Part shown: one piece after another, positions 24,088-64,000 of the stretch
How the letters are laid out: every line of letters starts with the position of its first letter
Position numbering within the stretch: the first letter of the stretch is position 1
Source: Cylindrodendrum hubeiense
Lineage: Eukaryota > Ascomycota > Sordariomycetes > Hypocreales > Nectriaceae
Direction of reading: 5' to 3'
DNA: 64,000 bases
Assembly: GCA_014621425.1 (NCBI GenBank)
Contig: JAANBB010000105.1
Span: forward strand, 41,806 to 105,805
The notes under the pieces: model-generated
Databases searched by the model: none
Told to the model about the DNA's origin: nothing
The model's input: the letters and a program-made list of their open reading frames with translations, nothing else
Program-made: the position numbers and the translations under genes

Positions 24088-24792
24088 TTGAGACGATGGA
24101 ATTTGTGTGTCGCTCCGCTGATTCATTGCATTGAGTACATGTACATATGGGTGGCCGAATAGCAAAGTAATTGGTCATGTTTGGATTACCTATTTCTCTG
24201 ATACTCCCTTTGTCTCGCCATCTCATCACTTGCTCGACCGGTGCTTAATAACTAATGCTGGCCTTGTTATTAAAACATGACAACCCATTCATGACTCCCT
24301 GAGACCACTCGTACCCGTGGTCAGTCTCATCCTAGCGTTTCCACCAGGTAGCATCCCACCCCGCCTTTCCGCCACGATACGCACCACGAATTTCCCCCTT
24401 CGTCCGATGAGTCCAGAGCCCGTCCAATGGCCGCTAAACCAGCATCAGCAAATGCGTAGTCAGCACCCGGTAGTCAAGTAGTGTGAAAGTCTCGCCTTCT
24501 TAGCGGCTTCAGTGGCAAGTGGTCAGTTCTTTGCCCCACCCTCGCCTATCGTTTATCGTTCTGTCACAGGCCGTGTCTTATCTCGACTCTGTCCCCGCCA
24601 CGATACCATTTCACCGGGACAGACCATCTCCGCAGCGCGTCCTCGCAACGTCCACCACGCCATCTGCCGTCTGCCCAAGTTCGCGGGTCTCAGCTACATG
24701 CATCTGCTGCGGCCGTTGGTGGCCATCTCCATTCTTCTCAATCGTCCCCCCGCGTCCCACGCGTCCACTCCGTTGTCGCCGTGAAACCCGCG
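24088..24792. other. Long leader/promoter of the C2H2 regulator
   Basis: This is a 705-bp spacer, C- and T-rich in its 3' half. The frame of the regulator is open upstream from about 24487 but contains no ATG before 24793, and the translated text has no family resemblance. It is treated as promoter plus leader. Confidence 0.5.
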
Positions 24793-27586
24793 ATGAAGGG
24801 CCGCCCCCGGCTACGCGTAGCTCCTTGCTCATTCTGCAACAAAGAGTTTAAGCGGCAAGAACACCTAGACCGGCATCTGCGTACCCGCAAGTATGTCCTT
24901 CTCTCGTGGGTCTCGATGCTGAGCCCTCTCTAGATACCCGGGAGCGACCATTCGGGTGCGCCTGTGGCCGCATGTTCTCGAGACAGTAGGTCCTTGTCCC
25001 CCCGTTTATTCCTCCCTTGCGCCCATCTCCATCTTCTCTCTCCACCTCGCCAACATCCATTGGGTTGATCGCTGCGACGGCTGGATGCTTACCATGATAC
25101 CACGCGCGTCTAGGGATCTTCTCAGTCTGCATTACCGACGCTCTCACTGTTCAGCTCCTACTCCCGACATAACCCAAGCGAGACGAGATTCCGCGACTGA
25201 GCGACCCCCCCAACCTACCGCCGACCGAGTGTCGTGGACTGGGCCCGAGGCCCTTTCTCCTCCGTTGGCCAGGAGCCCTCATGGGCAAACTTCGCCCTCT
25301 TCCTACGTCAGGCAGCCTGGCACGTCTCTTGTATTTGAGGGCACCAGGTCCCAGTTCGCCACACGAGCCCATGCGACACACACCATCGACGTCATTCACG
25401 ATCTGCCAACTACCGCCATCGCCCATCTTGCTCCCGCCGCGCCATCTCAGGAACAATTCATGGGCAAATTCTCAATACACTATCCTGCTATACAAGATCC
25501 GGAACATAGTCCCGGTGACGTCTCCCGCAGCAGCGGTGATGCATCGTACAGGGAAGACAATGTTGAAATGGCCATCGAAACTGCCCCCGACTTTATGCAG
25601 TTTCAGCCTTTCGATGTCGACTTCTTCTCCAACGAAACAGACATGATTAGTGACTACCTGATGGGTGTCTTCCCACCCATGAACTATCAGCCGTCATTGA
25701 TCGAGAATGCGCCTGACGGTGCGTACAATGCGACAGACGGGAACTCGGAACCCGTCCTCCCTCGCGCTCCTCTTTCCAATGATATTGAGCTACTGGCTCC
25801 CATGCACGTTTCCCTCGAACCAAACCAGCATCATGCCAATACCATTCATCCTCATACGGTTGACCCTGAAAACGGGACCAGCCTGGCTCGCGATGGGATT
25901 GGCGCATCACTGGACGCCATTGACGACATCATAGCGACTAATCCATGGGCCGTGTCAGCAGTGGTGTACGAGAGGCTTTCCGTCGAGGTTATGAAACACG
26001 AGCACATTTTCCCAGACACATTCGTTCTTCCGTGCCGACAGACGTTGACGCGACATTTTGCCAGCTTCGTCCGTGGATTCCACCCCCACCTGCCCTTCAT
26101 CCACCTCTCAACCACCTGCTTAGATTCCATGTCGCCCATGTTGTTGCTGGCTCTTGTAACAGTTGGATCATTTTATGGATTCGAGCATTCCGACGGCTAC
26201 ACCCTGTACTTTGTTGCGAAAGCAATCGTCACTAAGAAGCTGGAGGAGCGTCGCCGAGAGGCAGCTTCACATTTGCTCCGCTGTTTTCCACACTACGCGG
26301 GACTCCCCCCTGGCGCATCCGGAGGCTCCAACGCCTCCACGCCTCAATCCGTGGCTCTCGCTACCGTTGATATTGAGCTGGTGCAAGCCTTGATGGTGCT
26401 CATTCTCGCCATGTCCTGGCTCGATGGACCGCTTGCTGAAGATGCGCTTGCAATGAGCAGTCAACTTTCCGAGCTTGCTCGTGAGGCCTTGAAGATCCCG
26501 CATATCACCCACGTGAATGATACCTGGAAGGAATGGGCGCACGAAGAAGAGTGGCGTCGGACTCTCTTTTCCGTCTACTTCGTCTTCAATATCCAAACCA
26601 TCTGTTTCAATGTGCCACCGCTCCTCCCCAACTCAGAGATGAATCTTCCCCTCCCGTGTTCTGAAGTAGAGTGGAAAGCACCTAACGCGACAGCCTGGAA
26701 TCGCCTCCATCGGAAGGGGAGCCTCCGCGACATGAGGTTTTACCACCATGTCAAGCAATTATTGTCTGGGAAGCCACTAGATATGGACGTCCCGGTAACA
26801 GAATTTGGAAATTATTTGCTCATTCAAGGCCTGGTGCAGCAAATCTACTTTGAACGGCAGGCTGCATCTGCTCTATTGAGTTCGTCGGCGAGCCTGCCAG
26901 CTGCCACCATCAAAATCTACGATGCTGCCCTTCGTGCGTGGCAATCTTGTTGGGACTCGGCCATCGAGTCTACGCTTGATCCAGCGTCTCCTCATGGTCC
27001 CCTGGCCTTCAACTCCACAGCCATGCTACGCTTGGCCCATATCCACCTTGGGGTTGGCATGTACACCCAGTGCATGCTCCGCACGCGCGATCCCAGAGTG
27101 TTGGCTCGAGCATTCGAAACAGGCCCAAACCCTATTGCACTCGAGTCAGCCCATCTGGATCAGGCGGTATTACATGCAATCTACGCGTTGAGAGTACTCG
27201 TGAGGGTTGGAATTGCGGTGGTTGCGCGGGGCCGGACGGGACATTGGAGCGTTCAACACGCCATTTGCAACTTTGCCTGCGCGCTGTTACTTGCCAATTG
27301 GCTCGAAAACCTCTTCTGTCTAGTCTCTTCAGATGGACTTGAAGCTCTGAGGAGTGAAGACAAGCGATTACTCGGCACTATCGAACGCCTTATACAAGAG
27401 ACTCATTTGGAGGGTTCTCTAGGCCCAAAAGACTCATACCCTGGCCGTATACGCCGCCTCGCCATTGCTGCCTTGAGGCTCTGGGCCGAAACGTGTAAAG
27501 GAATCCAAGTATTCGAGATTGTTTACGTCGTAGGCGAAACGCTCTCCCTCATAGCAGAATCGTTGGAAAAGCATTTTGAAAGATAA
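24793..27586 (+). CDS. C2H2 zinc finger / fungal_trans transcription factor
   Basis: Three exons, 24793-24886, 24934-24985 and 25114-27586, give 872 residues. Finger 1 is C12-x2-C15-x12-H28-x3-H32 and finger 2 is C40-x-C42-x12-H55-x4-H60, linked by THTRERPF, a standard inter-finger linker. Intron 1 (24887-24933, 47 bp) must use a GC donor (GCAAGT) to complete His32. Intron 2 is 24986-25113. A long acidic, Ser/Pro/Asn-rich stretch follows. From about residue 330 comes a fungal_trans (fungal-specific transcription factor) domain with the CRQTLTRHFASFVRGFHPHLPFIH start, a helical repeat core and a C-terminal LWAETCKGIQVFE segment. It should be a nuclear pathway activator. As the last gene of the run it probably controls the divergent OYE/PxpA promoter, the MFS and the carboxylase genes. 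Similar C2H2/fungal_trans proteins control catabolic clusters such as nicotinate use (HxnR) in Aspergillus. That is a comparison from memory, not an orthology claim. Confidence 0.88.
24887..24933 (+). other. GC-AG intron splitting a zinc finger codon
   Basis: The 47-bp intron has a GCAAGT donor and a TAG acceptor and interrupts the codon of the second histidine of finger 1 (C|AT). A GTATGT donor four bases downstream (24891) would instead change the frame and destroy finger 1 and finger 2. That alternative frame happens to stay open through the second intron, so automatic gene finders could choose it wrongly. Confidence 0.7.
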
Positions 27587-47097: not shown

Positions 47098-50000
47098 TCA
47101 AGACATTATAACATCTACAGATAGAGGAGAATTATCCACTATCATGACGTTGGGGTCCTCCAGGGGCAGGGCAGGATTTCTGCAATATCTCGCTCGAGAC
47201 TGAATAGTTGCGGTTGCGGAACCAGTTCCCGGAGCATTAATGCTAGCCAACCCAAGTAGAAAGCTCAGTTCAGGTACAGCCGGAGCTATAACCCATCCTT
47301 TCTCAGCCCTGGGAAGTAGACGAATACGCAGGTAATACCGGTTCTGATTCTGGTCGTGAAATGTTGTTGGAATGACATTGAAGCGCAAGTTTGTCAACAT
47401 GTGCGCGCCGGGCCCAGTATAGTTGGACATCAGGAAGTAGGTGGCCTCATCCCGTGAACCAAGTGCAATATCGACAGTCACCTCCATCAATAAGTACTGG
47501 TTGATTTCGCTTTGCTTGAGGACAATGGAGAAGATGAGATCTTGTGGCAGGTTCGTCCTCTCCAATCTGACTTGACTATGATTTTCAGTCAAGTTGCTGC
47601 TGACACGCATCAGGAATCTGGGTGCTGATGCTGGCTCGGATCCTGGTGGCTGATCTTTGTTTGAACGGGCTCCAAGTTCACTTCGTTGAAGGCTGATGGG
47701 AATGTTGTCTAGGTAATTAATACTTGGACCTTGATGAAGTGGCAAGGCTCGAACGTTAGGCGCCAGGTAATTTGAGAGCGCATCTAGTTGAGGCACGTAG
47801 TTTGCATGTCTCGTGAAAGTATCCTCTTCGTGGCTTGCATTGCCATTGTCGTTGTTGTCATCCGAATCACCTTCTACAGGCGCAGTAGAGACTTCCGTAC
47901 CAGGGGCGGAAAGCTTCTTAACCCTCACTGCTTGTAACATGTTGATGGTTCTCAACTCTGGGCTTCCACTTCCCATATCAGGAGGCGCCAAGCTAGCGAT
48001 AGCTTGAGCAGCCTTGGAAGACTCAGCCATATTGATTGTCAAATTATAGATAGGATCGTTGAGTTGCATAGCAAACAGTGCCGATGTCGAAGCGTCATCG
48101 TCAAAGTAAGGTAGGCCAGTGCCATCCTGCTTTCCCATCATTTCTTGCAGGACTTTGAGTTGAACATCTGCAAAGGCGGGCAGACGTAGTATGCGCAAGT
48201 CATTGAGATTTTGATTGGGTTGGGAGCCCCATATGAATATGTTGTCTGATGAGTTATCCCCAGTCGGAGCATAAACAATTTGTTTCAGAGCTTTATGTCT
48301 GTCCTTATCGGTTTCCCGAGCTTGTTGGTCAACAGTGTATTGCCGTCTGATATCGACCTTGATTTCGGTAGGTTCAAGACCCCGACCCACAGCAAACCGT
48401 TGTTGGTGGGCAGGCTGCGTCAACACGAGAGAGGAGAACTGTGCAGAGCCAGGCACACGATCCATGAATGCCATCATGACCCCATCTGTAACAATTTCGT
48501 GGCGCAAGAGAGGTGCACCTAATGGCGGATCCTGGCCAGCGGCTTTGAGGGCCGTATCATTGGATACAATTTCAACGCGAAGATCTGGGAACATGGTCAC
48601 CAAGTCCGAGCGAAGGTAGAACCCATAAGCAGGTATCTGGATGCGATGCTCCATTCCATCAGGTGTGCGATTGATGTAGTCATTGAGTGCTTTCTTGATA
48701 GCAACGCGATCCTCGTCAGTACCAAAGTGGTTGCCGAGAGATAAAGCTCCATCGATGAGAGCATCGACCCAGTTCTTGTCAATATGAAAGAAACGGAGGT
48801 TTTCTGGCTGTAGGTATGTCGGATCAGGAAGAAGACAGTGTGCTGGCACACCCGCAAGGAACATACGATCGACCAGCCACGAGAGTACAGTCATCCAGTC
48901 TGAGGATTGCGGATTATTTGTCTCATCGTATGGATCACCCGATTTGCTTGAAGCCAATCTGCGAACAGAGTCCAGTGCGGCAGCTGGGTACTTGTCTTCA
49001 AAGACAGGCGAATCAAATGAGAGCGCCGGTCGATCGCGACGTTTGAGCCTTTTGTGGTGCCATCTCTTTTTGGCTCCTCCATGTCTAAAGACGGGTCCGC
49101 TAGGTCGTCCCCTACCAGGCGCTCCTTCAGGTTCCTGAGGCTCAAGTGGACCTGAACCTACAGGGTCTGAAACGCGTTTGTGAAGATGGATATCAGCAAG
49201 ACCCTTGACCATGGAAGAAAGATCCCCGAGGAGGTCATTGCGAGTGCGAAATGCTGTGTCTCTGACCTCCTTGATAGCACTGATCTTGACTTGTTTTGCT
49301 GCGACTGCATGTACCTCAGTTCTTACCCGTCCCAGCGCAGCTACGAATGCTTGGTCACCGAGTGCCATGGTACGGCCAACTTGCCAGGCGACAGAGTATG
49401 TCATGTCCATGATGCCAATCTGTTTATCGAGGATTTGCAAATCCAAGCCTGAGGTTGAGCACTTGGTCAGATGGTCCAAGGTGGGCACGTATGTGGGCGT
49501 GAATGGGCCTCGATATAGTGCTACAGTTGCCTCGCCTGTTTGAGTTCGATATTTGACCAAGGTGTACCCATCATTCAGACGACGTCCAACAAGTTGCTGA
49601 ATCTTGTCATCAGACGTCTTCAGAGGCGTGATGATTTCATCTGGAGCTCGCAAAACGTTGAGAGTGCGGCCCAAGCTTTCAAAAGCGTCTGGAACATTGA
49701 GTGTGTTTGGTGGGAGCACTGTATAGTTCCAGCTATACAAGGAACAGAGAGCCACATATCTGTGGTTCTGACCTGGGTAGTTCATCGCCTCAACGCCCTC
49801 AATCGACACTAGATGTGCGCACATGGTCGTTGGAATGACGTTATCAAGCGGCCCAGATCTGTTGCCCACAACGATACTAAAGACAGCTGTGTCTTCAACA
49901 CCAGCAAGAGCCATTCCAGACCCGTTGATCTTGCGGACGTGGGAAAGGTATTTGTACTGCGATGTGTCTGGTCCGCTGCCCTTTACTCGATTTCCTTCAT

Positions 50001-50832
50001 CGTCAAAGGTTGAGAAGAGACTAGTGAACAGATCTGGCTGTACAAAGATGAAGTCTCCGCGGCTAGAAGATGGTCCAAGTTTGTCCGTGACGGGAGTTGT
50101 CACGTTAGGGCTCAACTTCCATAAATCATCGATGCTCATGTTGACTGTCATCGTGGATGATTGCTTGACTGGCTTGATAACGCCATCGCTGGTATTGAAG
50201 AAGATGCTACTTGCACCGTCCAAGTCCTCTGGCGGTAATCGCAGCTCGTCTTGGGCGAATGAGAACACGACAAGCCAAGGCACACGGTTGCGTGGTACGT
50301 CGCTGGCTTTGGCTCCTGTGTCTGTGTCGCCCAAGGCTAGCCTTTTCATTTGTGCTTTGAGCTGCTTGTTCGTGCCACCTCTCGGGCTTCCGAGCCGTTC
50401 CCATGGAAGATGCGGATCTGTCAAGACGACATGCGGCAAGATTCGGTGATCATCGCTGTAGCCTGCTGGAGGATACGTAGAGTGGACGCTTCCGTCTGGC
50501 AGAGAGAATTGTGGTGCATCGACATAGAAGGCTTGATCTGCCTCCAACTGCAGTGTTTCACCATTCGCCTGGATGGTTTGTTTTACGGAGATGATGTGCT
50601 TGGGTCCTGCTTCGATTCCAGGAGCCCAGAATGAATTGAGCTTCTGCTCGCCTGGAAGCAATGGATCAATTTCCTCCTCGACGGCCTGGCCATTTGCCAA
50701 TACGGTCACAGGTTGAATAATGTTGCGACGTGCGTCAATTCGATTGGCAGCGACAGCACGGCGAGAGTGCCGTATCGTCAGATGTCGAGGAGAGTCGATG
50801 CGGGTACTCTTCCCTCCAGGGTAGATGCCCAT
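47098..50832 (-). CDS. Giant protein A, bacterial-like family of unknown function
   Basis: A single exon gives 1244 residues, from the ATG at 50832 (the frame is open ten codons further with a GTG). No signal peptide or membrane segment. Segments that match, from memory, a bacterial family found with giant proteins of the kind encoded at 53330-57538 and 58491-63624 are: PWLVVFSF (about 185), LSHVRKIN and AHLVSIEG (about 340), WVDALIDGALSLG (about 687) and GFYLRSDLVTMFPDLRVE (about 736), followed by the LLRHEIV block. In bacterial homologues the last is GFLLRSxVV-WPGLEV. A basic patch (KKRWHHKRLKRRDRP) is near residue 590. No catalytic signature is visible, so it may be a structural or binding protein. 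The lack of introns in a long fungal gene fits transfer from bacteria, but composition is not obviously different by eye. Confidence 0.72.
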   Translation of the reverse strand: MGIYPGGKSTRIDSPRHLTIRHSRRAVAANRIDARRNIIQPVTVLANGQAVEEEIDPLLPGEQKLNSFWAPGIEAGPKHIISVKQTIQANGETLQLEADQAFYVDAPQFSLPDGSVHSTYPPAGYSDDHRILPHVVLTDPHLPWERLGSPRGGTNKQLKAQMKRLALGDTDTGAKASDVPRNRVPWLVVFSFAQDELRLPPEDLDGASSIFFNTSDGVIKPVKQSSTMTVNMSIDDLWKLSPNVTTPVTDKLGPSSSRGDFIFVQPDLFTSLFSTFDDEGNRVKGSGPDTSQYKYLSHVRKINGSGMALAGVEDTAVFSIVVGNRSGPLDNVIPTTMCAHLVSIEGVEAMNYPGQNHRYVALCSLYSWNYTVLPPNTLNVPDAFESLGRTLNVLRAPDEIITPLKTSDDKIQQLVGRRLNDGYTLVKYRTQTGEATVALYRGPFTPTYVPTLDHLTKCSTSGLDLQILDKQIGIMDMTYSVAWQVGRTMALGDQAFVAALGRVRTEVHAVAAKQVKISAIKEVRDTAFRTRNDLLGDLSSMVKGLADIHLHKRVSDPVGSGPLEPQEPEGAPGRGRPSGPVFRHGGAKKRWHHKRLKRRDRPALSFDSPVFEDKYPAAALDSVRRLASSKSGDPYDETNNPQSSDWMTVLSWLVDRMFLAGVPAHCLLPDPTYLQPENLRFFHIDKNWVDALIDGALSLGNHFGTDEDRVAIKKALNDYINRTPDGMEHRIQIPAYGFYLRSDLVTMFPDLRVEIVSNDTALKAAGQDPPLGAPLLRHEIVTDGVMMAFMDRVPGSAQFSSLVLTQPAHQQRFAVGRGLEPTEIKVDIRRQYTVDQQARETDKDRHKALKQIVYAPTGDNSSDNIFIWGSQPNQNLNDLRILRLPAFADVQLKVLQEMMGKQDGTGLPYFDDDASTSALFAMQLNDPIYNLTINMAESSKAAQAIASLAPPDMGSGSPELRTINMLQAVRVKKLSAPGTEVSTAPVEGDSDDNNDNGNASHEEDTFTRHANYVPQLDALSNYLAPNVRALPLHQGPSINYLDNIPISLQRSELGARSNKDQPPGSEPASAPRFLMRVSSNLTENHSQVRLERTNLPQDLIFSIVLKQSEINQYLLMEVTVDIALGSRDEATYFLMSNYTGPGAHMLTNLRFNVIPTTFHDQNQNRYYLRIRLLPRAEKGWVIAPAVPELSFLLGLASINAPGTGSATATIQSRARYCRNPALPLEDPNVMIVDNSPLSVDVIMS

Positions 50833-52064
50833 GATGACTTGCTTTGGCTCACTTGTGACCACGTTTGTTTATAATCAAAGGGTTCTGGTCCAGCGAGAAG
50901 AATTGAATGAAGATGAACAACAATGTTGGTCTAATATTGTCGACAGTCCTAATTGAAGATGATGGTTTTATTCCTTCTCAAGTGTTGGAAAAGGATCCAG
51001 CACACGAACTCTGTTTGAAGACTTTGCTAAGCCAGAGATTCACGAGACGGATGCTAGAGGAATACCATGAATGCGATGAAAGGACGTGATGAAGATGGCC
51101 AGTACTGGCTGCTCTTGATCATGAGAATGTGATTTGCGCAATAGTCACTTCTTCCACTGCAGCAACACCGCGTCGGCACACGTATGATAGTCAACCCGTT
51201 GTAACGATCTTTTCCTGAATGCGCATCTAAATAACGGGGCGTCGGCATTGAGAAGCGCGTCAATGGAATCACAGCTCTCCGTGAACTCGAACATGCAGCA
51301 GGTGGGTCACACATTGTTGAGGGGTGGGCGATTATCGTTTCGCACGTGAAGGGTGTATCTGCATGGTCCAAGCATTGAGCAGCATAAGCGTCGCGGGGAG
51401 AGTATCTTTACCGGATGATCGCCCGCATTGCATGCGCAATGCCAACAATGTCCCGTCGTGCAGATACGGACCGAGCGGGGTTGAGTTCCGAACGAGATTG
51501 AGATATGTCTGTTCCTAATCAAGTAAGGATCAGAACCAGCATATGATCTGATATGCAACCAAACCGAGTAATCACCCTTCGAAGTGTAACGTGTAACGGA
51601 ACATGCGCTATGCGCCAATCGACCCACCTCCATAGTGCATCGGAGCAGGCCGCTTAGCTGCGACACATTTCACATGGCAAGCCCAATTGCAGTAATCAAG
51701 CTACGGCATGGTACGCATAGTCACCGAGCTTACCAACGATCTCATCACTGACGTTGACATTTCGCAACTGTGACAAGCACTGCAGAAGCGGGGTGAAGCC
51801 ATCCCGAGGAGCAGCCGTTGTTCAGCTCATGCAGTGCAAATAGGTTCGGGAAGGTTACGCAACTTGCATCCGGTCAGTAGGCCTCAGTACGATGACGAAA
51901 GGATGAGCGGGGAAGAAATCTCGGACTTGGAGTGAAGAGGAAAGGGTGAACATGGAGGGGGTTCCTGGTCTGCCCTCCTGAATTTACAGGAGGCTTCATC
52001 AGTTCTCCTTGAACCAGAAGCTTTCCCAGCTAGAGAGACAGAAAAATTGGCCATCTAGTCAATC
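50833..52064. promoter_or_regulatory. Divergent spacer between giant protein A and the lectin gene
   Basis: This is 1.23 kb between two divergent starts (50832 minus and 52065 plus). Short frames occur on both strands with no similarity. It is the presumed common promoter region of the two genes; no binding site could be named. Confidence 0.45.
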
Positions 52065-53102
52065 ATGGCTCCCATCACAGCTATCATCGACAAGTCCGCC
52101 CCCGACGACAGAGTCATTAAGCTGTTCTACAATACCGGAAAGGCTCAACTCGGCCTTGCGTTATGGTCGGGAACGAAAGATGCCGATCCTGAGGACTCGA
52201 TACAGACTCCTCAGGAAGTCGGCAATGGCCAATACATCCTCAACCCATCCCAGATGGCGAGCGTGAACTTCAAAGGTGCAGAAAGAGTCTTTGCTCTCAC
52301 AACAGCAAACCCGTTCAAGGTCACCAGAAATGACACATACACTCTGTCTGAGGTTTCTCCAGCGTACCAGAAGCTCCAAGAGGATATAATAATTGGCAAT
52401 ATCACGATTGCTTCATGTGCCAGTGATGACAATGCATGGGTCTATTTCAGCAGGTAAGTAGCCTACCCACCCTCAGACTATGGGCTGGCAAAAGTTTATG
52501 TATGCTTTATACACTAAAAAACAGCTAATGACGCTCACCAGGCCTATAGGCGACAGCAGCAGAAATCTTTGGGAATTAGATCTTCAAACCTCACGGACCA
52601 CTCAGCTTATATTCACTCACGACTTATGGATCAATTCCTTCGCTGCTGCTTGGTATGATACCATAACTGGGAAGCGAAGTGTCATCTACGAGGGAAGTTC
52701 ACTAATGGAGTATGTTGTCGATGATGCTACAAGTGAGTCGTCCATGCCAATGCATCCATTCTGCACTCGACATCTAACCATTATTTCTTTCGATTTATAG
52801 ATGGTAGGGCAATTGCATCAACAGGAGATATGCAGCGCAATACTCCAGTGGCCGTCGCTTTCAATGCTGGTACCGTCTTCCTTTACTACTGCGGGAGAGG
52901 CGCTGCTGGAGGCATTCGGCGCACTATTAGGAGAAACAATACCTGGGGCACCTCTACACTTATTGACGGTATTACCATTGCTCAGGATAGCCAGCTTACC
53001 GTGGTGAGGGCTAATGGCATTAATCATTTGTTATATGTGGCGAGAGGTCAGAACGAGGCGGAGGATGATTACTTTGTACACTACCGAGATGAGATTGAAT
53101 AG
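52065..53102 (+). CDS. Fucose-specific-lectin-like beta-propeller protein
   Basis: Three exons, 52065-52453, 52542-52732 and 52801-53102, with introns of 88 and 68 bp give 293 residues, close to the length of fungal fucose-specific lectins (about 310). Repeated blade-like units are visible: VIKLFYNTGKAQLGLALW, the SSRNLWELDLQT segment, SLMEYVVDDAT, then IRRTIRRNNTWGTSTLI and LTVVRANGINHLLYVARG. Each blade has a central strand, a polar turn and a W or Y. In the known family six such blades form a propeller whose clefts bind L-fucose. Here the blades are diverged, so sugar specificity cannot be given. There is no signal peptide, as in many fungal lectins. The gene lies between two of the giant genes and converges with protein B (227 bp between stops). 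Confidence 0.72.
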
Positions 53103-53329
53103 TTCCCATGAGGACTGGCAGATCTAATAGTAAAGCAGACAGGACGTTGAAATATCCCACAAGAGCCAAAGGATCCGCTTTGTAAATGACAATGCTCAAC
53201 TACAACGATAGTAACTTCAGTGTGATCAAGAAGGCATTTGGGATCATTCTCCTTGTAACCTAATTCCAAGACGTAAATTCCATGTTAATCCTAAGTAAAT
53301 GCACCACGAGAACCCGACGACCACTCATC

Positions 53330-56300
53330 TTAGGGTTTGGTTGGCGCCATGATTGGGTTTCTCAACTGCAAGAACCCCTCAACAGCAGCGTAAGGTCCAT
53401 CCTGGAACGCAGGCGTCATCAAATCACCCTTCTTCTCAATACCAAAGGCGTTGTAAACAGCCTGAGAATTACCATCCTCTCCCTCCGTCGTTCCCGACGC
53501 GGACTGTGCCTCAGCGTAGGGCTGAAACCAACTCCAGTCTCCACCACCTAGGGAAGGGAGCAATAAGTTGCGCTTCGGGACGTCACGAGCGTTCTTACTG
53601 GTTAGCTTGTCCGTTTCGAGGTATCCAGGGACATCGTTGACGGGCATTGTCAAGGGTCCTGCGTGAAAGAAGGCTGTCATGGTGTCCATAGCTTTTTGCC
53701 AAGTCCAGGGCGGTAAGAGTAACTCCGCCGCTGGTAAGAAAGACGAATATGCGTGGACGGGTGTGAAAGGATCCAGTATAGCGCCGAAGATTGCCATACG
53801 AGCATTACGTTGATCCTCATAGGCAATAGGTTCAATGGCGGGTGAAGCTTCAGAGAATGGAGGCTGCCAGAATGGGTCAAAGATTGGGTACTGGTCAGTG
53901 TCGAGTCCGATCAATGGCTCCGTGGCTTTGCCATCTGGGAGGAAGAACGTTTTGATCTCATCATAGTTTAATTGATCGGACCCAGGAGTTGTTGTGTCAA
54001 AGTAACCAACGAGTCCATCGTAGCCCGCCTCTTCATTTCCGAGCCGTAGTTGAAGTTGATAATACGGGGTCTTGTTATCAGGATCCGATGGCTTCAACAG
54101 TGTCCGCTCAGGATCTACCACCTTGCTTTGGGTACTTTGTATCTCGAGAGACGGTCCACTCAGTTCGACAGACCAGCCAGTATTGACGAGCGCAAGCGGT
54201 TTGCCTACAATGGAGTTGAGGAACTGTGCGTAGGCACCAGGAGCTGGAGGTAGCTTCTGTTGTGCGGTGGTTATCATACCCCAGAACCCGAGGAGGTATT
54301 TCGGATCAACCATTTTGGAGATGAGAGCATCGAGCTCTCGCGTATCAGGAGTGGGCTGTGCATCTGGGTCAGGGCTGAACGGTAACCACTTGGGCGACTG
54401 GAGGGTACCCAGAGGACCGCCGACGCGAACCTCGCGGTAGAATGTACCGTCAGGGAGGAAGAATTGAATACCGTAGTCAGCATAGTTGGTGATGACCCAT
54501 CCCCAAATTGGTGATTCCCATTCTGTGACAGGGCGCCAGGTTGCAGAGCCCTGGGAGCTACCGCTTGGGTCATCGGAAATGCGTCTGACAAACTTGGCAT
54601 TGATTCGCGCCGGCTGATTCATTTGTGGAGGCAACTGAAGGAACTCGCATTGTTCCGAGTTATCCTGGATTACAGTATTGGCGTATTTCTTCCCATCCAG
54701 TGTGACCTCCTGTGGTGCATAGAAATCACTGATGCAGGGATAGATTGGCGGTGGCCCTGCCACACGCGGCTTTTGGTCAATGGCCATGAGAGATTGACCA
54801 AACTTGTCGATTACGTTGAACTTGCGGAACCGGAACTGACCGTGTGTCACAGGTTTGAAGGGACAGTGCTCACTGTCGGTAAAGTTTACCAAAGCAGCAT
54901 ACGGAGTCAAGGCTGAGTTGCCATCGATGAGCTTCAGCTTATCTTCGGTCAATCCAGCTTGATTGAAAGCTGCTGCGTTCATGACATAGCTTGAATCTCC
55001 TTCAGGACCGACGACTTTGTTTTCCGGCTTCAGATGACTGCCCTCTGCTTGGGTGACGAGGCCACTAGCAAAGCCGGATAGTGGTGAAGATAGATATGAT
55101 AGCTCACTAATATTTGCAAGCAAATTGTTGCGATCTTCTTCGGGCAGATACTGTTCGAGGATACTGGGCGGCGTGTTCTGGAACAGCTGCTTGATCTTGG
55201 CACCCAAAGCAAAGCTTGGCTGAGGCAAGATCAGCACCCGTCCAGACAAGACGCGAACATCTTGTTTCTTATCACCTTGCCATCTAGGAAGAGCATCCCA
55301 CAGTGGCGGAGGTGTCTCGCTATCAGATGGCACAGTGATTCCATACCTGACGAGCTTGTCCTCCGAGTGTCGGGCAGTGTGTTCATCTAGTTTCCAGAAC
55401 TCAAACGGCACGTGAGTATATTCTACTTCCCACTCCGCGTAGAGTGGGAACCATGGCTGCCTGTCACCCCACTGATCACGCCAGCGCTGGTCGGTAGTCA
55501 ACTGGTCGTGAAATTGAGGGTAAAATTTCCCTTCGCCTGGTGTGCCGGAGTCGTTACCTGCAGGTCGGAGGGCGTGAAACTCCGTGATTAATGCTTTAGC
55601 AGCTGTTCCCAAGACCGTAGGCAGCTTTGCTACGACCAAATATGAGATTGCATTGAGCGTGCTGGGTAGATCTTGATCGGCTATAATGGTCTGGTACGGC
55701 GCCCGAATGTTGAGGTTGTCGAGATAATCAAGCGCCCAGCCAGACGGGATGCCCCCAACGAGGACGGTAGGATCATTTCCACCGTAAAAAACCGGCTCAC
55801 TCGTTGACTCGACGTTGGCCAAGAGGTTGGCCGAACCATCAGTCGGGTTTAAGAGATTGCCAACCTGCGTTTGAAGCTGTCCGATACGAGTTTGGAGTCC
55901 ACTGATACGGCTTGAGATTCTTCCCGCTTCGGCCTTGAAATTTTCATTTTGGTCATTTCCTTGATTATCGCTCTGACCTAGATCACTGGCATATTTCCAC
56001 CAAAGAGAAAACATGTCCCAGCGGTATTGGAGCATCGCTCTATCGCACGAGTCAAGCAGCGCCTGTGTAAGGTTCAATTGATTGAGCTTCATAATGGCTG
56101 CGGGCTCAGGTTCAGTGGGTTGGTTGGTGCTTGGATCATCAGACTCGGCAAAAAAGTACTTTGAGCCGCCTGGAGAACGAGTGTAAGACCAGTTGTATAC
56201 GGAGTCTTTGGCCTCTCGCTGGCCTTCAACGCCATCATCACGCGCTTGAAGGAGGGATTCGAGGGCTAAGATATCTTCCTCCAACTTGGCGACATCCTCT

Positions 56301-57538
56301 GAATTCTCGCTGGCGTCTCCGCGCGCGTGACAATATGCCAACAGTGCATCCATTGGAGTTGTGCCAACCGCGACTGCTGCCTGTTTCTGATCACGCAGGC
56401 GATCGTTGAACCCATCAGCTGGGACGCTTTTGGGCTTATTCTCATGGTCCCAAGTCACATCGTACATGCAACTATGACAAAGGACGCGGATCTGACTCTG
56501 AAGGTCCATCCAAGGGTCAGGGTTTGCCTCGTCTGTGCCCATCAGCGTCATGAAGAGTGACTGCAGGCTTTCTCCATGGGTAACATTGGCCCCCGATTTC
56601 CAGAGGGGGTCAACAGTGTCTTTCCAATGCCAACCCAAAACGTAGTAGCTTGCTTTGGCGTAATCGAGATACGAGGGTTCCTTGCTATCCCCGTATTCGA
56701 AGTTGTCCAAGATACTGAAGACGTTGGCATTGTGCATCTGGAAGTCGGCGAAGAGCTGGTTTCCACTTCGGAGGAGACTGATGTCTGGAGGATCAACACT
56801 GGGATTCTGGTTCTCAGTCCACTCGGATAGCGGTGTCTTGCGTCCAATGAAGACTTCAGCTTGCTCGTTGATGTTTACATCAGTACCGGCATGACCGAGC
56901 ACGAATGGCGCTACGTCCGTCTGCAAATCCGCTTGAATGGGGATGTCTTCCAGAGACCAGACGTAGTCGCTGTCAACCACCCACGCTTCATATTCTCTGT
57001 CTTTGAAGGCGTCTTTTGCACTCGATGGCTGTATGCTATCAAGTTCAATTTTTCTTATAACAATCCAGCGCGTCGGAGGCTGCAGAAAGTCCGGTGTAGT
57101 ATGAGTAGAGTTGTCATCTGCCCGAGCAGATGTCGCATCTAGTCCACGTCGCAATCTCTCTGCCTTTTTCCTAGACTCCGGCACAGAATCACTTGCCGAG
57201 ACGCCTGATCTGTAGAAGCGGGGAAGCGTCCAGTGGATGTAGACGCCATGACGATGGCGGAGAGGATTGGGATTTGGACGACCGCCTAGGTCAGTCAACC
57301 GCGAGTTGATGGACGCCGGCGCAGTGTTGTGCAGGGCAACGTGATTCTGAACATCGCTCTGAAGCAGAAAGCTGTCGAGTCTGAGAAATGTGTAGTTGGG
57401 TTGAGTGATGGGACAGATACGCGCAGTCGTGTCTTCATCTCTTCCCGTGCCGCATACAGCTGGATTCAGCACGAATACATCTAACTGCATAGGCACAAGA
57501 GCGACATCAAAATCCACGATTCCAGTATCGTCACTCAT
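53330..57538 (-). CDS. Giant protein B, bacterial-like family of unknown function
   Basis: A single exon gives 1402 residues, from the ATG at 57538. There is no signal peptide. N-terminal blocks GVYIHWTLPRFYRSG (about 100), TRWIVIRKIE (about 158), the segment EAWVVDSDYVWSLEDIP (about 183) and a YYVLGWHWKDTVDPLW stretch (about 297) resemble a bacterial family in which GVHLHW-LP, PNRWLVVR, VVESD and YLVxGWYSD are typical. CMYDVTWD later matches the bacterial HGMIYGVxWD. A heptad-like region (ISSRISGLQTRIGQLQTQV, about 550) may be a short coiled coil. The C-terminal 600 residues look beta-rich with no known domain. No catalytic motif was seen. It is divergent from protein C with a 952-bp spacer. 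It is probably part of the same system as proteins A and C. Confidence 0.72.
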   Translation of the reverse strand: MSDDTGIVDFDVALVPMQLDVFVLNPAVCGTGRDEDTTARICPITQPNYTFLRLDSFLLQSDVQNHVALHNTAPASINSRLTDLGGRPNPNPLRHRHGVYIHWTLPRFYRSGVSASDSVPESRKKAERLRRGLDATSARADDNSTHTTPDFLQPPTRWIVIRKIELDSIQPSSAKDAFKDREYEAWVVDSDYVWSLEDIPIQADLQTDVAPFVLGHAGTDVNINEQAEVFIGRKTPLSEWTENQNPSVDPPDISLLRSGNQLFADFQMHNANVFSILDNFEYGDSKEPSYLDYAKASYYVLGWHWKDTVDPLWKSGANVTHGESLQSLFMTLMGTDEANPDPWMDLQSQIRVLCHSCMYDVTWDHENKPKSVPADGFNDRLRDQKQAAVAVGTTPMDALLAYCHARGDASENSEDVAKLEEDILALESLLQARDDGVEGQREAKDSVYNWSYTRSPGGSKYFFAESDDPSTNQPTEPEPAAIMKLNQLNLTQALLDSCDRAMLQYRWDMFSLWWKYASDLGQSDNQGNDQNENFKAEAGRISSRISGLQTRIGQLQTQVGNLLNPTDGSANLLANVESTSEPVFYGGNDPTVLVGGIPSGWALDYLDNLNIRAPYQTIIADQDLPSTLNAISYLVVAKLPTVLGTAAKALITEFHALRPAGNDSGTPGEGKFYPQFHDQLTTDQRWRDQWGDRQPWFPLYAEWEVEYTHVPFEFWKLDEHTARHSEDKLVRYGITVPSDSETPPPLWDALPRWQGDKKQDVRVLSGRVLILPQPSFALGAKIKQLFQNTPPSILEQYLPEEDRNNLLANISELSYLSSPLSGFASGLVTQAEGSHLKPENKVVGPEGDSSYVMNAAAFNQAGLTEDKLKLIDGNSALTPYAALVNFTDSEHCPFKPVTHGQFRFRKFNVIDKFGQSLMAIDQKPRVAGPPPIYPCISDFYAPQEVTLDGKKYANTVIQDNSEQCEFLQLPPQMNQPARINAKFVRRISDDPSGSSQGSATWRPVTEWESPIWGWVITNYADYGIQFFLPDGTFYREVRVGGPLGTLQSPKWLPFSPDPDAQPTPDTRELDALISKMVDPKYLLGFWGMITTAQQKLPPAPGAYAQFLNSIVGKPLALVNTGWSVELSGPSLEIQSTQSKVVDPERTLLKPSDPDNKTPYYQLQLRLGNEEAGYDGLVGYFDTTTPGSDQLNYDEIKTFFLPDGKATEPLIGLDTDQYPIFDPFWQPPFSEASPAIEPIAYEDQRNARMAIFGAILDPFTPVHAYSSFLPAAELLLPPWTWQKAMDTMTAFFHAGPLTMPVNDVPGYLETDKLTSKNARDVPKRNLLLPSLGGGDWSWFQPYAEAQSASGTTEGEDGNSQAVYNAFGIEKKGDLMTPAFQDGPYAAVEGFLQLRNPIMAPTKP

Positions 57539-58490
57539 GTTGGTTGATTTGGTGTTTGCTGTGGTGATAGTAAAGATTGAATATGGACTTGGAGACCGAG
57601 CTTGGGCAAGGTCAACGAAATGAAGCCTTCGGTATATTGAGGATCTTGTCCAACTATGCTAATACGAGGAGAACGATGGACTATGATTCGGCTCAAAGTA
57701 CCTTTCCCGCCTAGCAGACCAAAGAAACCGCTAATCTCACAGGCACTGACATCTTGGACCCATACGTCCATTCAGATCTTGCATTGTTTTCTCACACCAA
57801 CTTCGGCATCTCATCTTTTCTCCCCCTCTTTTCGTTGCAAACCAATACGGCCCGTCTCGCATGACGCTACTGTAAGTTGGCGGATCTGAATCTACCTGCA
57901 GTCTTGTGTGACAGTTGTCATGTGGGGGTCACTCAACAGGCTTGCATGGAATGTTGACGCACCATCAGCGTCATAAAGACTTTGTCTGGGAGGGGAAACG
58001 TGCATGGAGCTGATAAGCACATGTAACACGCATATGGAGTTACAACGGGGCAGCTCGCACTCTACTCACACCCTCCATAACCATTAGAACATTTGATGCA
58101 CATGCATCTAACGGAGAGCTCTGATAATAATACTCCGGTTGAGTTCTTTGCTACACGACGTATCAGGAAGAAGCTGTTCGGGGTCTACCATGGTCCCCAA
58201 CACTGAACCGTGGGAATTTTCTCGGTTTCTCTTCTTGATCATGTGTATCCTACTCATTCGTTCTCTGATTCTTCCAAGCTCAATTATCCGGCTCCCTTCT
58301 TATCAAGTCATCCCCTAGCTGAGCATTTTCACATACTGATAAACTCTGCTCAACTTATTATCGGAACCCTACCAGCTTTCACCCCAGAAGCTTAGCCTAG
58401 GGGTAGAGGAGCCAGTACCGTTTCTTTTTTACATCCTGTCGCCAAGGGCTAGCAACCTTTCTCTAGCAGACTCCCCAGGGCAATCGCAAA
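57539..58490. promoter_or_regulatory. Divergent promoter region, giant proteins B and C
   Basis: This is 952 bp between two divergent starts. A TC-rich stretch lies near 57,780-57,850. No gene was recognised; short frames have no similarity. Confidence 0.45.
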
Positions 58491-61400
58491 ATGACTGTGT
58501 CCTCAAGCCCCCCTCGACGCGATGAACCCACAAACAATTCCTTGATAGCAACCAACTCGACAACTTATAGCATCTATGCGAGCTCTGCAGGTAGCAGTCC
58601 CGGCGAAAATGTCCAAGTTTTGTCACCGGACAGCCTCGTGGATAAGTTCGTGGCAGGATTGAATCCTGACAAAGTCATCATCTTGTCAACCACGCCAGAC
58701 CCAATAGCCAGTTTCGATGCTTCTGATGAAACCGTAAAATGGTTCCAGAATATTGATGCTGACGCCACTGGCTCCCTAACCGTCGATGATTCAGCGGCAA
58801 AGAACATTGAAAGCTTCGAGTTCAAGCTGTCTCAACCTTGGCCACTCGTCTTCAGCTCTGCCAGTGATGTCTTGCTCTTCACGTTCGGTTCCACCGGTCT
58901 TGTAGGCGGCGATGCAACAGGATCCCGAATTGAAGCGCCTGGTATTGACTCAACTGGCAACATGCTGACCTGTGGTCTTGACTTCGTCAAAATGGAAGAC
59001 ATCACAGGAGTCAAAGTCAAGGACGTCTTCAAGAACGCCAACCAAGACGGGATGACTGAATACCTGCTAGATGCAATCCTTAACCTTGAGGTCACGCTCA
59101 AGAAGCCGGACACTGATGCCCCGCCCAAGAGGAACGCTCTGTGGTTCGTTCCATCAGCGGCTAAGCGGCTTGAGACTCGCCTACAGTTCCAGCTGTCACT
59201 GTTTGAGCCCTTGCAAGATCTATTCTCATTTGCCCTGAGAGGTCTGGTGATTGAGAGCGCAGATGTCGTATACAAGAGTACGATGCAGCTGGCATTGACA
59301 GAAAATGGCGAGAAGCCTGTTTTTGACGGTGAAGTAGCATTCAGCATTGAATGCACCATCAACAGCGCTGGCAGTACAGTGTCAATGCTCGCCGGCGTCG
59401 AGTTCACCCCCTCTACCATTAACTTTACCTTCATGTTCCTCTCCCCAGATCCACTTTCAGGAATACTGAAGTGGTTGGCTGATCTTGCAGAGGATGACGC
59501 TGTTGAGGCGGTGGTTGACGAACTTCTAAACAAGGAAGAAAATGGAACCAAGGTTCTGCCCGGGGCAACGTTACGGAGACTGCGTGTTGCGCTTGATACA
59601 AGAAAAGACCCGCAGAATCCCAGAATCGGCTCCTTTTCTTTCGACATCGAGGTATCTGCAAGTTTTGGCCGAGGGGAAAACACCAATACTCCCATCTTCT
59701 TGATCACATATAATTGGGATCGGTCTATTGGTACTTATGGTACTCTGACTGGACAATTGTGGAACGGTAAGTGATAGCCCAGTTGACGCTCTGTCTCTTT
59801 TACTGATTGAAGCCATCTTCCAGATTTCAACACGTCCGATGATCTGGACTTGGAACCGAGTGGAGAGAAGTGGGCTATTTTGAAGCCTGTGGCTACCTCG
59901 CCAGCGTCGTTTATCGACATTGCCACTCTGATCCCCGGCCAGAAGGTGGTCAACATCCCCGACACCCTGCCTTCTGAGATAACCGTTGCATCCCTTCAGT
60001 TATCGCAAGAATCATTTGCCCTTCGGTGTGCGGCTACCGCTAAGCCCCGATCTCCGGGCTCTGCCCCTCAACCTTATCTGGGTGAAGTTGTTCTCTCTGC
60101 CTATTTCAATTGGGGTAGAAGCTCGGCCTTTGCTTTTGACGTCGGAATATCCGTCATGATTGATCCTCCAGAGGAGTCTGAGTTCGATACCCCAGCAGCT
60201 TTTATCGGATCTCTGAGCTATGCTTCACCCAATCAATCTTGGGAACTCAGGGCCTCCATCAATGGGTTGTATGCAGCCGTCCTAGCCGATTTCTTCGACG
60301 AAGATGCAAAAGACCACATTGGGCCGCTGATCAACTCCATTGCCATCAACACTTTGAGTGTTGAGTACGCATATGAGAGACCACAAGGCGGTACTAGTTC
60401 AACAACCGTGGGGAGCACATTCGCTATCTCTGGCGACTTGGTCATTGCAGGGTTGAGATTGAATATTGACTTCACGTACAACTCCGGTGGTTTTGTGTTC
60501 TCAGCAGCGCTCAATCCAGAGAATAAGGAGGATGCCAAGATCGGAGACATCTTAATAGACATCCTTGGTTCTGAGTTTGACATACCAGATTTCGTACACA
60601 ACACCTTACTGGTTGGTGATAACAAGGACGCGTTCCGTATCGATATCCAGAAGAAGACGACAACTTTAAACGCTGTTGACATCGAGTCATTCCAATTCCT
60701 CGCGCAACTCAATATCGGGCATCTTCAAATCCTGTTCTCCCAGCTTCACAGCACCAAATGGGACGCGAAGGATCCTTCAAAGCGACTATTCAAAGCAGCC
60801 ATCAACGGCTTTGGCGCCATGGAGCTTGAGATCCCTCTGATCGGCACATTGACCCAGCCACTTGATGAGCTCTACTTCCTCTTCGTCCAGGATCCCAAAC
60901 CACCAAGAGCCCCAGGACAGCTTACAGGGCTTACCCGGGAGGACGTTGCTCTATTCAACAGCGGCTTGCAAGCCAATCAGCTGCTGGTTGCTGATAAAAT
61001 CAAGCCTGACCAAGCCAAACCATCAGACCTTCTGGTGCCATCTGGATGTCACTTCGCCGTCATCATTCGCAGTACCACGGGTGAGCGCATGTGTCTGCTT
61101 AGTTACAGCTTTATGAAACCTCAGGGTTCTTCCTCTCAAGCGTTGATAGATCCTGCTTCTAGTGTGCGAAAGGGCAGAAGACGCACTGGGGATGAAATGG
61201 ACGATGGAGGCCCTAGTGCTCAAGCGCCATACAAGAAGGTCGCAGGCCCAGTGGCGATTAGCAACGTTGGTCTTAAGTACAAGGATAAAACATTGTCAAT
61301 CGTCTTTGATGCGACCTTCCAGCTTGGCCCGATTGGATTCTCTCTGCTCGGCTTCAGTCTTAACACTCAATTCGAGACACTGGACAAGCTACCAATCATC

Positions 61401-63624
61401 AGTGTCAACATCAACGGCTTGGCAGCATCCTTTGATAAATCTCCATTCACCATTGCTGGAATCATCGTCCACGGCAATGACGGCGCCATGGATTACTATG
61501 CTGGAGGGTTGATAATTGGTTTCCGTCCGTATCAGTTCCAGGCAGCCGGCTTCTACGGTGTCATCACTCTCAAGAACAGCAACGGTAGCTTCCAGAGCGT
61601 GTTCGTCTTTGCAAAACTCAACGGTCCGCTCATGACGCTTGCGTTCGCTGAAATCAGTGGAATATGCGGTGGTTTTGGCTATAATAGCAATGTTCGCCTA
61701 CCATCCATAGATCAGGTGTCCGATTTCCCGTTCATCAACAGCAGTCGACTCAGCGGCAACGACAATGCGCAAGAAGTACTTCTAGAGCTCGTCGATCCCT
61801 CAGCCGGTGGATGGTTCCAGCCACTCGATAGCACCTACTGGGGTTCAATTGGCATGAGGCTCTCTGCGTTCCGTATGCTAAACGTCGACGCAGTGGTTGC
61901 AGTCCAGTTTGGTAACTCGGTCAAGCTGGGTATCTTTGCCGCAGCGGTTTGTGACATTCCGTCGGCCAATTCGCGACTCAAGCTGGCCCATGCTGAACTG
62001 GGCATCGCCGCTGTCCTGGACTTTGACTATGGCTTCCTCAAGATCGAGGCTCAGTTATCGCCCCGCTCGTACATTCTCAGTCCTAATTGCCATCTCACCG
62101 GTGGTTTCGCTCTCTGCTACTGGTTCGATGCGCCTCTTGCCGATAGAGCCAGAATTGGAGACTTTGTTTTTACGCTAGGCGGGTACCACCAAGCCTTCCA
62201 CGTACCCGTTGGTTATCCCAACCCTCCTCGCCTGGGTATCAGCTGGAATTTGGGTGGCGGCTTGTCAATCTCTGGAGAAGCTTACTTTGCAATCACGACC
62301 AAAGCATGCATGGCTGGTGGGCGCCTGCATGCTGCGTTCAAAGCGGGACCGCTGTCTGCTTGGTTCGATGCCTTTGCCAATTTCCTCATCAACTACAGAC
62401 CATTCTACTTTGACATGTCAGCTGGAGTCTCCGTCGGCGTGGGATTCAGCATCGACTTCTGGTTCATCCACATTCGCATCTCTGTCCAGATTGGCGCCGA
62501 GCTTTACCTTTGGGGCCCACCTGTTGCTGGCCGTGTTCACGTCGACTTCTGGATTGTCGCTTTCGATATCAATTTTGGCGATTACATTTCCAAGGACGAA
62601 AAGGTCACCCTGGTGGATTTCTACGAACTTGTACTTCAGGATTCGCCTGCATCTTCCTTCGCGTCGGCGAAAGCCTTGACCACTGGAGAGAGTATGGAGC
62701 GAGAACAGCAATCAATTACAGCGTCAGCATTGACGAGACCCAAGAACGAAGCACACAATTTCCTTGCCGAGTCTGGATTGTTAAACCCCAATGACGAACC
62801 AGAGCGGGGACAGACAGACCCATGGACTGTCCGAGCTGGCACATTTATTTTTGTTGCAGAATGTAAGATGGCCATAACTGCTGTCAGGACAAGCGATAGT
62901 GGTGCTCCAATCCTTCAACACAACGAGGTTTTCAGTAAGCCGATGAAGTTGACGACGTCCATGACTTCGATCCTACAGATTCAGGTCATACATGAGGACC
63001 GAAGCAATCCTGAGGAAGATTGGCAATTTGAGAAATATATACAAATGCTTCCAAGTGCTCTATGGGCAAAGTGTAAGTCTTGCCAGCATGTTTCTCTCCT
63101 CTCTTCTTATACTTGGGAAGATTCAGTTCTGTTCTGCTATCGCCGAACTCGTCCAGACAAGCTAACCCGTCACAGATGACCGACGAACTGATCCACGCCA
63201 GAGCGGAAACAATGTCGGCGATCTGCTCAACACAAATGACGGTAGCCCTCCTCTCATGACAGGCGTACGAGTCACCGCACCCAAGCCAACCATATCTCCC
63301 GATCCATTCCCAGCCTATAAGGTTGCGGATGCAGACCTCCAAGAGCTGACTGCAGAGCGTCCTTTCCCTACTATGGTCACTGCTGAGGATGCGTGGGCTC
63401 CTGTCAAGCCGAATGATGATGTCAAAAAGCGATATGAAGACGTTCATGATGCCTGGGCAAATCCTGTGCTAGAGGACAAGGGCCAACAAGGGTTCGTGGG
63501 CGCCTTGGCACAGAGCTTGGGATGGAGTGGCGTGAGTGGGCTGCAGAGCGTTGCTGGAATTCCAGATAGGCTGAAGAAGGGTTTTATGAACATGTATGTA
63601 GCGTCCCCATTGTTAACTGCCTGA
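58491..63624 (+). CDS. Giant protein C with DUF6603-like region
   Basis: Three exons, 58491-59766, 59824-63072 and 63176-63624, with introns of 57 and 103 bp give 1657 residues. The protein consists mainly of alternating hydrophobic and polar beta-type strands. The region about 950-1350 (for example GLIIGFRPYQFQAAGFYGVI, GSIGMRLSAFRMLNVDAVV, GNSVKLGIFAAAVCDIP, LKIEAQLSPRSYIL, LGISWNLGGGLSISGEAYFA, ARVHVDFW-type end with LYLWGPPVAGRVHVDFW) is what I recall as DUF6603, a domain of unknown function in bacteria and some fungi. Sequence logic of the strands suggests a large beta-barrel or beta-solenoid. No signal peptide, catalytic motif or transmembrane helix was seen. It ends with a helical C-terminus. 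It is the rightmost gene of the giant-protein locus and the last gene in the window. I recognise the domain by memory only. Confidence 0.8.
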
Positions 63625-64000
63625 GTTTGATAGTATGTAAGTTTTGACATAGAGGCTGTTGTCCTCCAATTTGAATATGAATGTTGTTTAATTTAAAAAG
63701 GGATTTAGTTATTACTCTTACTATGAAGTTAGTATAAGAGTTTTTTTCTGTGATTAGTGGGTAAAGTTTTAAGTTAAGGACTTAATTAATATATTAGTCT
63801 GTTTTAATAGAATTAAGATCTAATAATTAGACTATATATTAAGAAAATAAGAAAGATATCTATAAATATCTTTATAAAAATAATAAACTAAGTATACCTA
63901 ATATAATATTTATTAAAGATTAAAGGATATTATTTTTATATATTTAGCTTTTTTTCTTATTTATAAGTATTTATCTTTATATAGTTTTTTAATTAATTTA
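63625..64000. other. Extremely AT-rich right end
   Basis: From about 63,650 the sequence is almost only A and T, with homopolymer runs and no frame. This is typical of RIP-mutated repeats or AT-rich isochores in fungal genomes, and probably marks the border of the giant-protein locus. Confidence 0.6.

Follow-up and report, generated by a model that had tools for sequence, protein, structure and literature searches.

According to PMC12799240, antiviral systems have repeatedly taken up metallo-beta-lactamase (MBL) nucleases, whose genes as a rule lie upstream and which a protease partner switches on. On the fungal side, toxicity to nematodes is reported for cytoplasmic fruiting-body proteins (PMC6238071), and lectins are reported to act against fungivorous nematodes (PMC4539729). 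The present analysis concerns three giant genes, hereafter named A, B and C, that lie together with a lectin-named gene in a 64,000-nucleotide stretch of contig JAANBB010000105.1 of the fungus Cylindrodendrum hubeiense (assembly GCA_014621425.1). The window, by which the whole of this stretch is meant, is the right-hand 64 kb of the 105,805-base contig, in a genome of 47.5 Mb. Homologues of C, A and B are linked in a bacterial operon, an arrangement called type I below, and the window trio falls under the same definition, its C, A and B homologues being encoded together. The analysis suggests a previously undescribed system, here called C-A-B, for which we infer a function in conflict between organisms.

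The C-A-B operon in bacteria and a second type shared with haloarchaea

A sequence-only reading of this DNA had linked the three proteins to bacterial families encoded close together. The neighborhood search bears this out and finds a C(DUF6603)-A-B operon, in which the first gene is homologous to window C, the second, encoding about 760 residues, is approximately 22-28% identical to window A, and the third is homologous to window B. A TBLASTN search of 72,556 plasmid records with A, B and C as queries detected 8, 8 and 13 records respectively, the 8 records being the same for A and B. The tandem order C-A-B, on one strand, is found on plasmids of Streptomyces clavuligerus, two Embleya, Streptomyces sp. 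NBC_01276 and Paenibacillus polymyxa, while a P. sonchi plasmid carries A and B together with no C detected. When genome contigs were scanned with C alone, 28 loci were obtained, mostly from Streptomyces. A is located directly downstream of C in 28/28 of them, B follows in 27/28 and an additional gene, D, in 24/28; the contig of the single locus without B (L030) ends inside A, and the B gene of L044 is cut by a contig end. That the three families are also neighbors in bacteria argues for one multi-component system.

The distribution of this system is patchy. DUF6603 was found above the cut-off in 12/396, 9/398 and 16/395 genomes in samples of three phyla, counts that include three center genomes already known to be positive, and in 0/14 control genomes. 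Of the 37 positives, 20 were chosen by hand so as to cover the phyla, two of them, L082 and L083, being apparently close relatives. In all 20, C is adjoined by A or by A2, a distant form of A. Thirteen of these loci belong to type I, with B in 12 (none was found in L078), and the other seven, carrying A2, constitute a type II, with a gene B2 in five (L089 and L091 are cut by contig ends). The C proteins of the two types are homologous (hhalign probability 99.5 over 418 columns), as are the N-terminal regions of A and A2 (probability 96.5, E 9.9e-10, 187 columns), and no homology between B and B2 or between D and D2 is detectable with hhalign. Type II loci (C-A2-B2, often with D2) are also present on haloarchaeal plasmids. 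Taken by themselves, the type II loci L012-L016, L079-L081, L089 and L091-L093 represent a second undescribed system. Several Pseudomonadota loci are peculiar in another respect, as their C open frame reaches about 3,200-3,500 codons, with a large uncharacterized N-terminal part (Table 1).

A phage-borne element was considered as the source of these genes and rejected: a search of 50,697 phage records with the Embleya C protein gave no hit, and no B relative is present among 35 pattern matches in IMG/VR.

Fungal clusters and mirrored trees

The C. hubeiense genome contains three diverged A-B-C clusters, in the window and on contigs C178 and C57 (Table 1). The window proteins are 26-35% identical to the C178 and C57 paralogues over the longest BLAST stretches, and the gene order differs in each cluster, the trio being still linked in all of them. 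Remnants or partial matches occur on C1, C112, C135, C168 and C690; those of B on C1, C690 and C168 and that of C on C112 are partial or interrupted by stops, so that these genes seem to have been repeatedly duplicated and lost. The third A paralogue, on C57 (L063/L064), bears a C-terminal extension of about 930 residues, whose repeats resemble a propeller on visual inspection. No match to its last 719 residues was found in Pfam or in PDB sequence searches, and a homology of this extension with the lectin-named protein, suspected by eye, was supported neither by hhalign nor by these searches.

In database searches, 427 homologues of B and 324 of A were detected at E<=0.001, about 8,000 candidates having been scored for each, and the fungal comparisons drew on the best 120 of each set. 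The named homologues among the matches listed are species that we take to be Pezizomycotina. For 42/120 of the listed fungal A proteins, the longest contig has exactly the same size as that of a listed B (contig sizes, not contig names, were compared), and 10/28 homologues of the lectin-named protein share in the same way the longest contig size of a listed A or B. Locus tags are in accord with this, for instance in Fusarium austroafricanum, where consecutive numbers designate A (F53441_1547), the lectin (F53441_1548) and B (F53441_1549).

Trees of A and B were built from 68 loci, 45 fungal and 23 bacterial, after removal of 10 close Streptomyces relatives and of loci without near-complete A and B. 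The fungi form a single clade in both, with supports of 0.90 for A and 1.0 for B, and within the fungi the patristic distances of A and B are correlated with r=0.989, a value reached in 0/1000 permutations; the fungal sequences are the top-scoring homologues of the window proteins, which biases the sample in their favor, and midpoint rooting gives no direction. The sequence-only reading, which proposed a multi-component system acquired by horizontal transfer, is supported in part. A recent joint transfer is not supported, since in both trees the fungi fall into a single clade, separate from the bacteria sampled, and three deeply diverged paralogous clusters coexist within one genome. Any transfer would thus be ancient, its direction being unrooted, and a passage from bacteria into fungi is plausible because of the wider prokaryotic range.

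The gene models of the window are listed in Table 1. The sizes and positions first read from the DNA for A, B, C and the lectin-like gene are reproduced by open reading frames (ORFs) and splicing, and the gene coordinates confirm the two divergent pairs (A with the lectin-named gene, B with C) and the convergent one (the lectin-named gene with B). An AT-rich right border had also been described; the composition is as stated, with a GC fraction of 0.389 in positions 63001-64000, but this stretch is the contig end, where the window itself stops. Farther to the left, a LamB/YcsF gene, a transporter of the major facilitator superfamily (MFS), a biotin carboxylase and a regulator form a run on the forward strand that presumably corresponds to a lactam/5-oxoproline-type utilization cluster.

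Table 1. Positions of the C-A-B genes, their companions and other features described in the text
Feature	Record	Position	Strand	Description
Gene A	window	47098-50862	-	intronless ORF; 1254 aa from GTG, 1244 aa from internal ATG
A/lectin-named gene intergenic stretch	window	50863-52064		shared 5' stretch, divergent
Lectin-named gene	window	52065-53102	+	3 exons, 293 aa; introns 52454-52541 and 52733-52800; named after UniRef names of homologues
Gene B	window	53330-57538	-	intronless ORF, 1402 aa
B/C intergenic stretch	window	57539-58490		shared 5' stretch, divergent
Gene C	window	58491-63624	+	3 exons (58491-59766, 59824-63072, 63176-63624); introns 59767-59823 and 63073-63175; 1657 aa, DUF6603
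Gene C	C178	3854-9720	-
MBL ORF	C178	9687-10985	-
Gene A	C178	11264-14851	+
Gene B	C178	17042-21415	+
Gene C	C57	47478-53141	-
MBL ORF	C57	53145-54206	-
Gene B	C57	54738-58937	-
Gene A	C57	59518-65157	+	long C-terminal extension
Match to B	C1	385978-387693		partial or stop-interrupted
Match to C	C112	194198-194766		partial or stop-interrupted
MBL ORF upstream of C	L006, L011, L041, L076, L078, L082, L083, L088			bacterial type I loci
Long C open frame	L042	3497-13345		Pseudomonadota
Long C open frame	L085	1230-10982		Pseudomonadota
Long C open frame	L087	1113-11666		Pseudomonadota
Protein of about 490 aa	L019	6948-8453		upstream of C
Protein of about 490 aa	L038	3041-4504		upstream of C
Conflict-type genes	L009	1-4566 and 29336-33126		flanking the C-A-B-D operon
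LamB/YcsF gene	window	15919-16623	+	start of the run 15919-27586
MFS transporter	window	17099-18865	+
Biotin carboxylase	window	20572-24087	+	1171 aa, with CT_A_B and CT_C_D domains
Fungal_trans regulator	window	24956-27586	+	end of the run

Families and predicted folds of the core proteins

A and B match 0 Pfam or NCBIfam models at E<=1. The DUF6603-like label initially given to C is confirmed by Pfam well above the curated threshold (PF20248, E 4.7e-154, 514.1 bits against a gathering cut-off of 27). No nucleoside triphosphatase (NTPase) or other switch was recognized by Pfam in the core proteins. At the structural level, a confident model of a bacterial B homologue gives no Foldseek match in PDB or BFVD at E<=0.001. 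The model of C resembles porin barrels and the apoB belt, with low confidence (pTM, the predicted template modeling score, of 0.49) and with no Foldseek match in PDB at E<=0.001.

The lectin-named gene and the D proteins

The system is modular, its core being accompanied by different genes in different organisms. In fungi, the recurrent companion of A and B is the lectin-named gene, as the sequence-only reading had proposed in counting it as part of the set. This gene has 28 homologues, several of which are named 'Fucose-specific lectin' in UniRef, and a member of the family is located between A and B in 2/3 of the C. hubeiense clusters. The copy of cluster C178 was detected by a single-sequence search (34.1 bits, E 9.4e-13) as the best of three splice models, of 320 aa, the best of 2000 shuffles scoring 6.2 bits. 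The lectin-named protein matches 0 Pfam families at E<=1, and a lectin fold sought by PDB sequence was not convincingly found, the sole hit (E 0.019) being a nanobody. Its name derives from the UniRef labels, and it is a putative sugar-binding protein.

In bacteria, B is followed by gene D in the majority of actinomycete loci and in three loci of Bacteroidota. D proteins vary at their tip: over 66 pairs taken from different loci and having stems at least 60% alike, the mean identity is 77.6% in the stem and 27.0% in the tip, the B proteins of the same loci being 81.5% identical. This comparison covers the 17 of 38 D ORFs of the first set in which the end of the stem was located by motif (Streptomyces, Kitasatospora); among the 40 pairs listed, 2 have tips that are 65-75% alike. 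The stems give weak immunoglobulin- or fibronectin-like matches (E 0.056 and 0.065), and an F5/8 type C (discoidin) domain is present in 1/22 B and 1/20 D proteins scanned.

Genes upstream of C

Another variable position lies upstream of C. An MBL-fold ORF occupies it, on the same strand, in at least 8/46 bacterial type I loci with C, this count being a lower bound since L021, L086 and L087 hold less than 1.2 kb upstream. The open frames of the MBL ORF and of C touch or overlap in 7/8 cases, and a gap of 1058 bases separates them in L011. An MBL-fold ORF also lies next to C, upstream and on the same strand, in 2/3 of the fungal clusters (C178 and C57), and the window holds no match to either of these two. 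The statement that no gene of the set has a catalytic motif has therefore to be qualified: the four window genes indeed show no Pfam enzyme match, but an MBL-fold gene is present in both sister clusters and in the bacterial loci just mentioned.

These ORFs are ComEC-like, with motifs of the type THxDxDH and KxS/GHHG. Pfam scans, which covered the fungal ORF of C57 and the bacterial ones except that of L082, placed Lactamase_B above the cut-off in 3/6 bacterial MBL ORFs and below it in the other 3; L041 gave a weak Lactamase_B_2 match only and the C57 ORF no Pfam match. With PADLOC, the two MBL ORFs tested, one bacterial (L088) and one fungal (C57), both match LmuA, RTasMBL and Avs1a. No PHROG match was obtained with the bacterial proteins tested.

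Other genes found upstream of C encode a class 3 lipase (L042), CAP and TerD proteins (L018), DUF4135 (L074) and a LysR regulator (L084). In L019 and L038, from two genera, this position is held by proteins of about 490 residues that are alike by eye, have no Pfam match and are a possible alternative enzyme. Elsewhere around the loci first collected, recurrent families are limited to one cluster, which spans 4 loci. The C-A-B-D operon of L009, a locus without an MBL ORF on a Streptomyces plasmid, is flanked by genes whose annotation is of conflict type (CATRA caspase-associated, CHAT-domain, trypsin-like peptidase, protein kinase), the CHAT and caspase-associated genes lying upstream of the operon and the peptidase about 11 kb downstream of B.

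Possible functions of the C-A-B system

The account favored here, tentatively and with doubt slightly outweighing belief, is that of a modular conflict machine with a C-A-B body, D or the lectin for recognition and an optional enzyme. A, B and C would together form the body of a single machine made of several protein subunits and probably intracellular, in which C may supply a large beta-sheet barrel or belt meeting a membrane or lipid and A and B may assemble around it. D or the lectin would recognize a surface glycan or a foreign molecule, and the upstream enzyme, where there is one, would act as the effector that causes damage, in analogy to the Avs, Lamassu and Hachiman pro-nucleases. As a whole, the machine would be used in conflict between organisms, be it as a sensor and effector of immunity or as an antagonist that is delivered. 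A broader version, in which a single conflict machine is common to bacteria and filamentous fungi, with interchangeable tips in bacteria or a lectin in fungi and interchangeable enzymes, chiefly an Avs/Lamassu-type MBL nuclease, and with the distant C-A2-B2 form in bacteria and haloarchaea, is rather doubtful. The complex may instead handle lipids.

Several observations weigh against a conflict machine. Most loci, the window's own cluster among them, lack the MBL ORF, and no D was found in the loci of Pseudomonadota and Paenibacillus; moreover, the D proteins that were paired come from close relatives, so that the pairs are not independent. Of the proteins scanned with PADLOC, namely window B and the bacterial C, A, B and D, none belongs to a family at E<=0.01. 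A crude motif scan, limited to the trypsin-like motif, found no such partner near C, and it also missed the annotated L009 peptidase. The likeness of C to a barrel or belt comes from a low-confidence model, and a resemblance of folds proves no function. Finally, no export signal stands out by hydropathy, so that delivery would need an unknown route.

If the sensor-effector side of this account is taken alone, C-A-B with D or the lectin would be an intracellular immune system sensing an invader and releasing the MBL-fold nuclease, as in Avs, Lamassu and Hachiman. The absence of an export signal is consistent with it, as are the patchy distribution, with some loci on plasmids, the matches of the MBL ORFs to the LmuA, RTasMBL and Avs1a models and their position directly upstream of the core, which is also that of nuclease-protease modules in passages of PMC12799240. 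Such a system is nevertheless unlikely when the MBL ORF is found in only 8/46 bacterial type I loci, the core proteins tested lack a PADLOC match, and neither a switch (by Pfam) nor a protease partner (by the crude trypsin motif scan) accompanies them. The diversification of D tips on a conserved stem would suit a delivered toxin-like complex, its variable tips or lectin aiming at other cells. In such a complex, C would form the pore or touch lipid, and the cargo would be the enzyme encoded upstream (MBL, lipase). The discoidin domains of one B and one D, the lectin-family gene of fungi, the barrel-like sheet in the C model and the variety of upstream genes, including a class 3 lipase, point in the same direction, and so do the effects on nematodes reported for cytoplasmic fruiting-body proteins (PMC6238071) and fungal lectins (PMC4539729). 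This possibility is in turn judged improbable: A and B match no Pfam family, toxins included, no PDB structure matches the model of B at E<=0.001, and no secretion route or lysis gene turned up, no search having been aimed at either.

The patchy distribution in the three-phylum samples and the strong variation of the D tips argue against a third possibility, which is not considered probable: a complex with a structural or lipid-handling task, such as a shell, a belt or a transfer machine, whose accessories bind carbohydrates and which takes no part in conflict. A mere coincidence, in which unrelated large genes would stand side by side in C. hubeiense, is next to impossible and was rejected in view of the prokaryotic operon, the three paralogous clusters of this genome and the mirrored trees of A and B.

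A complex that is conserved, modular and cross-kingdom, with diversifying tips and a defense-type enzyme, would be a new kind of machine for conflict or for lipid handling; in the former case, filamentous fungi would still be using an immune system or weapon of bacterial type. Because of its compact operon in bacteria, the system is testable in laboratory strains of these.

Comparison with described systems

No description of DUF6603 or of the C-A-B system was found in the literature searched, which consisted of open-licence papers, and none of the titles listed there concerned C. hubeiense; together with the lack of PADLOC and PHROG matches for the proteins tested, this is why the system is taken as previously undescribed. 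Of the three core families, A and B lack a Pfam domain and C has one to which no function is assigned, and the confident B model matches no solved structure; yet the three stay together from bacteria to Pezizomycotina, and a related second type exists in bacteria and haloarchaea.

C carries DUF6603 (PF20248) above the curated cut-off, and this domain anchors the loci studied here. Pfam assigns no function to it, whereas C appears here as one part of a multi-gene system with two locus types. The likeness of the window gene to fungal fucose-specific lectins lies in the name that UniRef gives to several of its homologues, and the difference in its lack of a Pfam family at E<=1 and of a convincing PDB match. 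With the Tc insecticidal toxin complexes, C-A-B would share several giant proteins, possible glycan-aimed modules and the lack of an apparent signal peptide. Pfam detects no TcA- or RHS-type domain, A and B matching 0 families at E<=1 and C only DUF6603.

A further comparison is with the MBL-fold pro-nucleases that occur in the antiphage systems Avs/AVAST, Lamassu, Hachiman and DRT. Unlike these systems, C-A-B has core proteins that, as far as tested, match no PADLOC model, and no trypsin-like protease was found with it by motif. The MBL-fold ORF is alike in the two cases: it lies directly upstream of the core gene, as passages of PMC12799240 describe for those systems, and it carries motifs of the same type, with PADLOC matches in the two ORFs tested. 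In C-A-B this gene is optional; it is absent from the window cluster and present, beyond bacteria, in a fungus as well.

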